A stretch of DNA of 20,530 bases. Origin: a virus. The notes beneath the pieces were generated by a model that had not been told where the DNA came from, did no database searches, and worked only from the letters and a program-made list of their open reading frames with translations. Positions 19,090 through 20,530 of this stretch are shown here, in pieces. The position numbers and the translations under genes are program-made. Within the stretch, counting starts at the first letter, position 1. Every line of letters starts with the position of its first letter. The DNA is taken from positions 1 to 20,530 of IMG/VR virus record IMGVR_UViG_3300044972_000531; one strand, given 5' to 3'.

Positions 19090-20319
19090 ATGCCAACAAT
19101 GGAAGAGCAAGAAACTACACCTACATTTACATGTATTGGATGTAGGATTAGTTTTGAGGGAGAGCCAAGTGCTGAACTCAATGCTGGTGCAGTATGCGAG
19201 GACTGTCACGGTACATGTATGACCTGTGACACTTCTTACAATCGTCAGAGTGGCTCTATGCATGCCTACAATGACGATGGAGAGTCGTGTGGTAGATGCA
19301 CGCGCAACAGTTTCACTATGTGTAGCATGTGTGACACATGGGAACTTAACGACAACACCACCTATGTTGAAGGTTACGGTGAACGGGTATGTGAGTGTTG
19401 TCTAGAGAATAGATTCTGGTGGTGTGATGATTGCGACCGATACATCCATGAAAGTTGGGACCATGATGATTGTGGTATGAACGGGTTAGTTCATGACTAT
19501 AGTTACAAGCCAACTCCTGTATTCAAGCACACTCAAGATGAGTTCGACAACGCCAGAAGTATCCTTCAGGATACCGACAATGTGATGCGCAAGTATCGCA
19601 AGATTCCTTACCTTGGATTCGAACTTGAGGTGGAATGTACCGATGGTAGAGATGCATACCGTGAGGGTGCTAATTTGTACGAGGATTCAGAGATTGTATA
19701 CCTCAAGACAGATGGCTCACTCAACTATGGTTTCGAGATTGTTAGCCATCCTCTTACCCTCGACTGGGCTATGGAAAACTTCCCTTGGGATAGTCTAAAA
19801 ATGCTTGAGGCTAAAGGGTTCGAGGCTTGGACTACCGATACCGCAGGTATCCATGTCCATGTATCGCGTGACGGATTCGAGTCTGAGTCACATCAGGCTA
19901 AGTTCGTTCACTTCTTTATCCGCAATGAGGTATTCTTATCGTGGCTGGCTGGTCGCCATAGTTCTAGATGGGCTAAGTTCGACCCCGAACACACCAAGAA
20001 CATCAAGGATAAGTTGCGCCGTAAGCGTGACAGCGAGAGGTACATGGCAGTTAATCTGCTCAACTCTGGTACTCTTGAGGTGAGAATCTTCCGAGCCTCA
20101 CTCAAGCCAGAGAGATTGCAAATGAACCTGCAACTTGTTGATGCTGTCGTTAGGTACACCGAGCGACTGTCCACTCTTGAGATGGTGCAAGGTAAAGGCT
20201 TCTCATCAGAATCGTTCATGCGCTGGGTAAATGGTCAGCCACGATACGAACAATTAAATGATTACTTAATGCGCTGGGTTGAACCGTTCACCCTTGGCGC
20301 GGAACAGATTGGAGAATAA
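19090..20319 (+). CDS. Zinc-ribbon amidoligase-like enzyme (409 aa)
   Basis: ATG at 19090 with AAGGAGG six bases upstream. Residues 15-128 carry many Cys pairs (CIGC, CEDC, CMTC, CGRC, CSMC, CECC, CDDC) like tandem zinc ribbons. From about 175 the protein matches the phage amidoligase pattern: GFELEVE (176-182), KTDGSL (206-211), GFEIVSHPL (214-222), GIHVHVSR (253-260) and a YMAVNLL-TLEVRIFRAS block (318-336). In that family the fold is glutamine-synthetase/ATP-grasp-like, and the conserved acidic and His/Arg residues bind ATP-metal and substrate to form amide bonds. The following gene is a class-II glutamine amidotransferase, a pairing known for amidoligase clusters. The substrate is unknown. 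Palindrome copy 9 sits in the linker, encoding SILQDT at 157-162. Confidence 0.85.
   Translation: MPTMEEQETTPTFTCIGCRISFEGEPSAELNAGAVCEDCHGTCMTCDTSYNRQSGSMHAYNDDGESCGRCTRNSFTMCSMCDTWELNDNTTYVEGYGERVCECCLENRFWWCDDCDRYIHESWDHDDCGMNGLVHDYSYKPTPVFKHTQDEFDNARSILQDTDNVMRKYRKIPYLGFELEVECTDGRDAYREGANLYEDSEIVYLKTDGSLNYGFEIVSHPLTLDWAMENFPWDSLKMLEAKGFEAWTTDTAGIHVHVSRDGFESESHQAKFVHFFIRNEVFLSWLAGRHSSRWAKFDPEHTKNIKDKLRRKRDSERYMAVNLLNSGTLEVRIFRASLKPERLQMNLQLVDAVVRYTERLSTLEMVQGKGFSSESFMRWVNGQPRYEQLNDYLMRWVEPFTLGAEQIGE
19559..19574. repeat. Palindrome family copy 9 (loop TTCA), inside amidoligase
   Basis: GTATCC-TTCA-GGATAC, in the linker between the zinc-ribbon region and the catalytic domain, reading Ser-Ile-Leu-Gln-Asp-Thr. 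Confidence 0.87.
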
Positions 20320-20321
20320 CT

Positions 20322-20530
20322 ATGTGTCTACTTATGGTAACTATGGGGCAACTGCCCAAGCGTGAGCATTTAGTCAATGCAAGCGAGAATAATCCTGACG
20401 GATACGGCTATGCCGTACATCATGGCGACCGAATAATTACTGGTCGTAGCATGAAGTATGAGCAACTGCTCGACCGTTTCTATGCAGAGATGGCTAAGTC
20501 AGAGAATCCAGTAGGTGTATTCCATGCACG
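20322..20530 (+). CDS. Class-II glutamine amidotransferase (5' part, runs off window)
   Basis: ATG at 20322, two bases after the amidoligase stop and with GGAGAA upstream; 69 complete codons are seen. The start MCLL puts a Cys at position 2, the N-terminal nucleophile of class-II (Ntn) glutamine amidotransferases after Met removal. NNPDGYGYAVHHGDRI and NPVGVFHAR match the 'n.DGwG.a......' and 'v.HvR.at' strands of that fold. It would release ammonia from glutamine. Its coupling to the amidoligase gene suggests joint action, with ammonia or an amide being delivered to the amidoligase product. The catalytic core beyond the first strands lies outside the window. Confidence 0.83.
   Translation, partial: MCLLMVTMGQLPKREHLVNASENNPDGYGYAVHHGDRIITGRSMKYEQLLDRFYAEMAKSENPVGVFHA

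Follow-up and report, generated by a model that had tools for sequence, protein, structure and literature searches.

A paired amidoligase and class-II glutamine amidotransferase with zinc-finger-like modules: a candidate two-component amidation unit in viruses of very probably actinobacterial hosts

The stretch of DNA analysed here, called the window below, is the entire IMG/VR virus record IMGVR_UViG_3300044972_000531 (20,530 bases), and the record itself stops at the right edge. Close to that edge, on the plus strand, an amidoligase gene with an N-terminal array of cysteine pairs is followed by the start of a class-II glutamine amidotransferase (GATase) gene. Joint presence or absence of the two genes in related viral genomes, and correlated distances of their products, suggest an accessory unit whose halves travel and evolve together. 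Our preferred reading, tentative and given somewhat less than an even chance, is that the pair forms a two-component glutamine-dependent amidation enzyme, an accessory module of actinobacterial viruses.

The amidoligase gene (19090..20319, stop codon included) encodes 409 amino acids (aa). Its ATG at 19090 is preceded by a Shine-Dalgarno-like AAGGAGG (19078..19084, plus strand, recognised by eye from the sequence), the stop codon occupies 20317-20319 and the next ATG lies at 20322, leaving a 2-base gap between both open reading frames (ORFs). The 409-aa ORF matched the Pfam family Amidoligase_2 (PF12224) with 32.7 bits against a cut-off of 22. Its PHROGs matches included phrog_22302 (E 7e-31) and phrog_16683 (E 2.5e-27), both families of unknown function, and phrog_2443, labelled 'amidoligase enzyme' (E 3e-6). 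Comparison with an 88% identical copy in the sister contig L005 gave a ratio of nonsynonymous to synonymous substitution rates (dN/dS) of 0.145, and the ORF behaves as a real gene under purifying selection. A promoter scan of 18840-20530 found none, versus a mean of 3.5 in shuffles.

Sixteen of the 17 cysteines of the amidoligase lie inside the first 135 residues. Seven CxxC pairs, with the first Cys at residues 15, 36, 43, 67, 78, 101 and 112, form a LIM/zinc-ribbon-like array (residues 15-115, 19132..19434), and seven such pairs were met in none of 20,000 shuffled proteins (mean 0.66, maximum 5). Each of the 14 array cysteines was kept in all, or all minus one or two, of the covering rows of the amidoligase alignment (C78 and C81 in 43/43, C115 in 43/45); its 47 rows are match ranges, with 2 to 16 of them gapped at each N-terminal Cys. 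Searched against PDB sequences, the amidoligase profile found a LIM protein as its best match (E 0.0015), and the 42 matches with E up to 1 comprised zinc-finger proteins (LIM, DnaJ-type, ATRX, PHD) and chance matches, e.g., casein kinase II. The earlier note, made from the sequence of the window, had allowed the array to recruit either DNA or a protein; its likeness to LIM faintly hints at a protein partner.

No ligase occurred among these 42 PDB sequence matches of the profile, and the fold assignment came from the predicted model (pLDDT, the predicted local distance difference test, 86.8). Residues 169-400 of the model matched YbdK (1r8g) with Z 12.6 and the plant glutamate-cysteine ligase (GCL; 2gwc) with Z 12.0; other matches were 1tt4 (Z 12.7), glutamine synthetases (GS; Z ~10-11, within residues 148-409) and the depupylase Dop (Z 10.1), and the top Foldseek match was a GS (E 5e-5). 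The predicted GS/GCS-type catalytic domain spans residues ~151-400 (19540..20289). Within it E178, E180, D208, E216, H255, H257, R289, R317, E330 and R332 were identical in 47/47 rows; judged by spacing and by GS numbering, the E-x-E, D/E-x7-E, H-x-H and E-x-R motifs presumably correspond to the residues with which GS binds metal and phosphate. This invariant acidic, His and Arg set and the predicted fold suit an enzyme that builds amide bonds with the help of ATP and metal. The array of Cys pairs joined to an amidoligase, as described in the earlier note, was thereby borne out, and the condition that the note had named as refuting, an amidoligase lacking ATP-binding residues, did not apply, given these candidate residues.

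The second gene is cut by the record end, and its 5' part (20322..20530, plus strand) amounts to 69 codons beginning with Met-Cys. The 69-aa fragment had no Pfam match above the cut-off and a weak PHROG match (E 1.5e-5) to a family of unknown function. In L005 the gene is entire (7233-8114, 293 aa), with the identical 2-base gap; the protein passed the Pfam model GATase_4 (28.5 versus a cut-off of 23), and the 69 visible codons compared with it gave a dN/dS of 0.08. C2, R70, T73-H74-G75, N81, H83, N98-G99 and D113 were identical in 37/37 rows of the GATase alignment, and we assign their catalytic and glutamine-site roles presumptively, by analogy with GlmS. The L005 model (mean pLDDT 73) was good over residues 1-185, fell below 50 at 187-238 and ended in a Cys-rich tail. 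Residues 2-185 matched the GlmS glutaminase domain (1xff) with Z 14.0 and a root-mean-square deviation of 3.8 over 172 aligned residues, followed by EgtC (Z 13.6), PurF (Z 13.1) and AsnB (Z 10.2). Judged from this model, the N-terminal nucleophile (Ntn) fold is complete in L005; the gene that starts at 20322 is predicted to hold the rest of the fold, contrary to the other refuting condition of the earlier note, and the Cys2 class-II GATase that the note had placed two bases downstream was recovered. In the C-terminal tail C241, C244, C261 and C264 were kept in 37/37 rows, C258 in 36/37, and C267, C274 and C276 in 35/35 covering rows. Putative zinc-finger-like modules are therefore found on both proteins, at the front of the amidoligase and at the back of the GATase.

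Profile searches of viral contigs encountered 550 encoded relatives of the amidoligase and 378 of the GATase, 80 of which were kept on either side. A GATase gene adjoined the amidoligase gene downstream on the same strand in 78/80 amidoligase loci, and in the two exceptions the contig broke off directly behind the amidoligase; counted from the GATase, the pairing was seen in 75/80, and the remaining five genes all sat no more than 146 bases from the contig start. The alignments and these counts were drawn from loci picked for matching the two proteins, and only a set selected by the terminase lacks that bias. It held the best 80 of at least 596 terminase relatives, from which the count took the 23 whose upstream sequence reached 6.5 kb and left out the 57 where it was shorter. 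Both genes were present in seven of the 23, neither in 16 and one alone in none; the figure of 4e-6 for this joint presence or absence treats the 23 genomes as independent, which they are not. Across all 80 relatives the amidoligase was found in 11, the GATase in 10 and both in 10, the single one (L284) standing at a contig end. On a terminase tree of the 23 loci and the window, presence of the pair required four label changes, at least three of them forced by supported branches.

In the examined stretches of the 23 genomes only the amidoligase and GATase families split 7/7 versus 0/16. The gene calls behind the neighbourhood and family counts were greedy ORF picks, which are unreliable at high G+C (the amidoligase of L186 was lost in this way). 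Two other families, of ~320 and ~160 aa (L268:5422-6384 and L270:4289-4774), were each found in 9/16 genomes without the pair and 0/7 with it (p 0.019 each, uncorrected for the many families). Over 48 loci the amidoligase and GATase distances correlated at 0.955, and at 0.80 once the terminase distance was removed (0/2000 permutations as high); the same test gave 0.33-0.51 for three neighbouring gene families (26-33 loci), two more families having too few loci.

Twenty-four records of annotated phages matched the amidoligase. Nineteen were Mycobacterium records, all of them also with the GATase, and the remaining ones were MEP401/402, ctgrD200, the faecal contig L257 (both genes) and the Clostridioides difficile phage AR1086-1. 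At the locus of the last (L339:3671-5857) the Amidoligase_2 gene is followed by a gene for an RlaP-type RNA-repair nucleotidyltransferase, and a DUF1653 protein is encoded upstream. In JF704100 gene 105, the amidoligase, is labelled 'glutamine amidotransferase domain protein' like its GATase neighbour 106, as happens in other Mycobacterium phage records, and the label is probably a carried-over misannotation. A short GATase-like ORF (L255:3001-3498) was noticed in the Bifidobacterium phage BP677P1, with eight similar records in total; BP677P1, the one examined of the eight, had no recognised amidoligase, and its 436-aa upstream ORF contains CxxC and gave no amidoligase match.

From 424 amidoligase relatives in bacterial genomes 80 loci were kept: several from actinobacteria, two from Ignavibacteria, single ones from other bacteria and many from ruminococci and their kin. 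The GATase was detected in 59/80, and in 57/80 it lay one to four genes downstream on the same strand. Among the 21 loci without a match to the viral GATase hidden Markov model (HMM), which undercounts divergent bacterial copies, 15 had a nearby candidate Met-Cys ORF by a loose pattern, and one (L228) ends two bases past the ligase. The mostly ruminococcal loci L182-L252 hold divergent cassettes in Ruminococcus and its kin (e.g., L205:6001-6954 with L205:7073-7291), with several per genome, for instance in R. flavefaciens FD-1. Upstream of these cassettes comes a small gene of the DUF960 type, a resolvase or tyrosine integrase is encoded nearby, and a DUF4314-like or small hydrophobic ORF often lies between ligase and GATase. 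The bacterial neighbours scanned were hand-picked: 49 of 89 plus two from the Bifidobacterium phage, and 58 of at least 150 ORFs, the latter from the ruminococcal set (DUF960 14, Resolvase 13, Phage_integrase 7, DUF4314 3). Together the 51 and 58 proteins, tabulated without their loci, included tyrosine integrases and resolvases as well as DUF4192 and TraG-like proteins, and a location on mobile elements is accordingly probable for some of the bacterial copies.

Such surroundings bear on the idea that the pair serves counter-defence or host takeover by modifying RNA, a host protein or the DNA of the element itself, thus blunting restriction or other defences. It would suit a pair that is present or absent jointly as an accessory and that occurs also in bacteria, at times on contigs that encode a resolvase, an integrase, a TraG-like or a DUF4192 protein in the vicinity. 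In Actinokineospora the gene directly after the pair (L173:7880-8800) combines an ArdC-N antirestriction domain with an IrrE-like peptidase domain. However, accessory status is compatible with many roles, ArdC stood beside the pair in a single locus and PADLOC matched no model to the four proteins submitted; we consider this function quite unlikely.

The two genes might also act singly, their pairing being no more than operon inheritance, for example as auxiliary nitrogen-metabolism genes. A nitrogen-metabolism role is in print for Phage-ZRK32, where it was read from growth effects of the entire phage (PMC10945688); moreover, linked genes are co-inherited anyway, and amidoligases of distant relatives occur without an adjacent GATase. 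The lack of singles among the 23 genomes, the distance coupling above that of three other neighbours and the adjacency of the pair in distant bacteria speak against separate action, which we find very improbable.

According to the preferred reading, the Cys2 Ntn protein would hydrolyse glutamine to glutamate and ammonia, while the GS-fold amidoligase, with ATP and metal, would activate a target carboxylate as an acyl phosphate. Ammonia would then attack the acyl phosphate to give the amide, with the net reaction glutamine + ATP + R-COOH -> R-CONH2 + glutamate + ADP + Pi, so that the GATase would be the ammonia source. GS itself uses ammonia as the nucleophile. The zinc-finger-like modules may join the two proteins, dock on the target, likelier a protein than DNA, or do both. 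As two enzymes occurred together and no third was found, amidation with ammonia from the GATase is the simplest complete chemistry. That no enzyme for an in-between step was found points in this direction too, and the curated models do so weakly: the NCBIfam matches of the GATase at E 0.01 were only GlmS and PurF, far under their cut-offs, with no EgtC model among them.

Several observations weigh against glutamine-dependent amidation by an inseparable pair. On the GATase model EgtC, which shares the fold but hydrolyses gamma-glutamyl bonds, ties with GlmS (Z 13.6 versus 14.0), and in Pfam GATase_4 is the best match; donation of ammonia and hydrolysis are therefore not told apart. Well-known class-II GATases that donate ammonia mostly form one polypeptide with their synthetase, whereas the window pair is unfused. 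Presence of the pair was clustered on the terminase tree (shuffles averaged 6.9 changes and only 3/500 gave as few), hence the 23 genomes are not independent trials. Five of the 80 bacterial loci (L177, L194, L210, L215, L232) had sequence to spare and no GATase candidate, and the amidoligase of AR1086-1 is followed by RlaP, with no GATase next to it. In Arthrobacter cluster AL phages the amidoligase stands beside AIG2 (PMC5513430).

The alternative closest to this evidence is a gamma-glutamyl ligase with a deglutamylase: the ligase would attach glutamate (or a peptide) through its gamma-carboxylate to an amine of a metabolite, peptide or protein, and the Ntn protein would cleave that bond, either in the manner of EgtA/EgtC or as writer and eraser. 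In ergothioneine synthesis EgtA is a GCS-type ligase, EgtC an Ntn hydrolase of the class-II GATase fold, and EgtB acts between the EgtA and EgtC steps. The solved folds nearest the predicted ligase include the gamma-glutamyl ligases YbdK, GCL, GS and GmaS, and the match of EgtC to the predicted Ntn model is consistent with cleavage. Two papers place a gamma-glutamylcyclotransferase, also acting on gamma-glutamyl bonds, near the amidoligase in some other phages (PMC5513430, PMC11318856), and the PSA-HP1 authors group the GATase with degradation genes (PMC5498523). Yet two enzymes that formed the bond and broke it again would achieve nothing unless the host or another gene stepped in between; EgtA/EgtC has an intermediate enzyme, whereas no third gene was found to accompany the window pair, and the curated NCBIfam matches named GlmS and PurF rather than EgtC. 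This chemistry is possible, although on the unlikely side. Within the preferred amidation reading, a more specific version is decidedly doubtful: a free-standing, zinc-finger-guided protein amidotransferase, carried by phages and bacterial mobile elements, that would use glutamine nitrogen to amidate the carboxylates of Asp/Glu side chains or of the terminus in a docked host protein and so silence a host or defence protein.

The host of the virus is very probably an actinobacterium and plausibly belongs to the Nanopelagicales. The actinobacterial assignment rests on the window terminase, which shares 54.5% identity with its counterparts in OX376640 and OX376641, and on WhiB, encoded in 24/24 related contigs of 38-41 kb and, among 14 control genomes, only in Corynebacterium. 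A 'Ca. Planktophila' isolate served as culture host for two phages, one of them OX376640 (LanE43-AprE7) (PMC10202952). In this cultured relative, Planktophila phage E7, HMMs found neither amidoligase nor GATase. WhiB itself was considered as a member of the module and rejected: it occurred in 81/112 pair loci and in all 24 large contigs, and in 6/7 genomes with the pair but also in 7/16 without (the latter count concerning a gene family judged WhiB-like by eye). As it is found in pair-less genomes and, according to PMC10202952, in E7, WhiB marks the host group, not the module.

Partner genes were searched in the same 24 contigs, i.e., all 38-41 kb ones among the 80 terminase relatives, which may be fragments, with 14 control genomes alongside. 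GGACT (PF06094, gamma-glutamylcyclotransferase) was found in 0/24 (control 9/14), AIG2_2 (PF13772) in 0/24 (control 3/14), ATPgrasp_YheCD (PF14398) in 0/24 (control 8/14, four over the cut-off) and ATP-grasp_4 (PF13535) in 0/24 (control 13/14), further ATP-grasp families not being searched. Acetyltransf_1 was likewise found in 0/24, and COOH-NH2_lig (PF14395) in 0/24 with the control silent too. No peptide-substrate partner was found, small ORFs being hard to exclude. With the searched cyclotransferase, ATP-grasp and acetyltransferase families at 0/24, the two-gene form without a third partner looks like a minimal version. The observation in the earlier note stood, as did the part of its interpretation concerning amide-bond chemistry, which the results fit; the ATP-grasp or acetyltransferase partners it had suggested beyond the right edge did not turn up. 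A conserved ORF of ~60 aa lies directly upstream of the amidoligase in 34/112 loci (e.g., L049:4758-4970). It was considered as a Pup-like substrate tag and rejected, its C-terminus being unconserved, and its profile found nothing among ORFs of at least 30 aa in the window or L005.

These searches bear equally on cell-wall modification or superinfection exclusion, in which peptidoglycan peptides would be amidated or receive additional isopeptide links, a role proposed for the phiEco32/LUZ24-type cassette. Actinobacteria amidate their own peptidoglycan. Phages that encode an amidoligase together with a GATase have had a cell-wall role proposed for them in print (PMC10580990, PMC5498523). The cassette of phiEco32, LUZ24 and PSA-HP1 contains both genes, as the window does (UFV-P2 table in PMC3890496; PMC5498523), but also further ligases, an ATP-grasp enzyme and a gamma-glutamylcyclotransferase, and the searched families of the last two were missing from all 24 relatives. 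The window pair as part of a phiEco32-type cassette was therefore rejected, GGACT, AIG2_2 and the two ATP-grasp families each being at 0/24. For the cell-wall role the lack of these searched families is an adverse finding, and the role is itself a guess about the target that fits either chemistry, amidation or gamma-glutamyl ligation; we hold it to be unlikely.

Closer parallels to the two-gene arrangement exist. Marvin, a cluster S mycobacteriophage, likewise encodes an amidoligase and then a class-II GATase (gp105/gp106, L002), in the order and strand of the window and with identities of 34.5% and 31.4%, respectively, in the matching segments. Its genes are separated by 79 bases rather than 2, gp105 has fewer N-terminal cysteines and a longer C-terminus than the window amidoligase, and both proteins fall under the Pfam cut-offs (19.5 versus 22 for the amidoligase, 19.1 versus 23 for the GATase). 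The two genes are also adjacent in the OM43 phages MEP401 and MEP402 and in the podovirus ctgrD200; unlike those of the window group, the GATases of MEP402 and ctgrD200 have no C-terminal Cys cluster, and the host of the MEP phages is a Methylophilales bacterium, versus the very probably actinobacterial host of the window virus. MurT/GatD differs in its folds, a Mur ligase and a class-I GATase. It resembles the window pair in consisting of two separate proteins, a ligase and a glutaminase, which amidate a carboxylate (PMC3267633). In MEP401/402 the amidoligase and GATase were given as auxiliary metabolic genes, and the same paper quotes proposals of cell-wall modification (phiEco32) and secondary-metabolite synthesis (Marvin) (PMC10580990). 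Both genes are also reported for UFV-P2 and tf (PMC3890496, PMC3517423) and for the PSA-HP1 cassette and its relatives (PMC5498523). The pairing in phages, which the earlier note had called already described, is thus in print (PMC10580990, PMC5498523, PMC3890496, PMC3517423), with annotations going back to at least 2012 (PMC3517423); no substrate test of such a pair was found in the literature searched, which mostly lacks subscription journals.

Elsewhere in the window, the gene at 3-614 on the minus strand, open at the left end of the record, shows collagen-like G-x-y repeats in its translation (by eye). A very large ORF of 1840 aa (4903-10425, minus strand) shares the strand of the terminase, and ORFs near its size (1764, 1725 and 1846 aa) occur in E7 and other relatives, the likeness being one of size alone. 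Megablast of the whole window against phages gave no match.

The find is an added example of an already known pairing, real and tidy. The window group presents a clean minimal case of it, with two genes and no other family co-varying in the examined stretches, and the relatives with and without the pair, together with the cultured E7, in which neither gene was found, make the modified target directly testable. Should the protein-directed version of the amidation reading be true, site-specific protein amidation by a glutaminase-fed GS-fold ligase would be a new post-translational chemistry.

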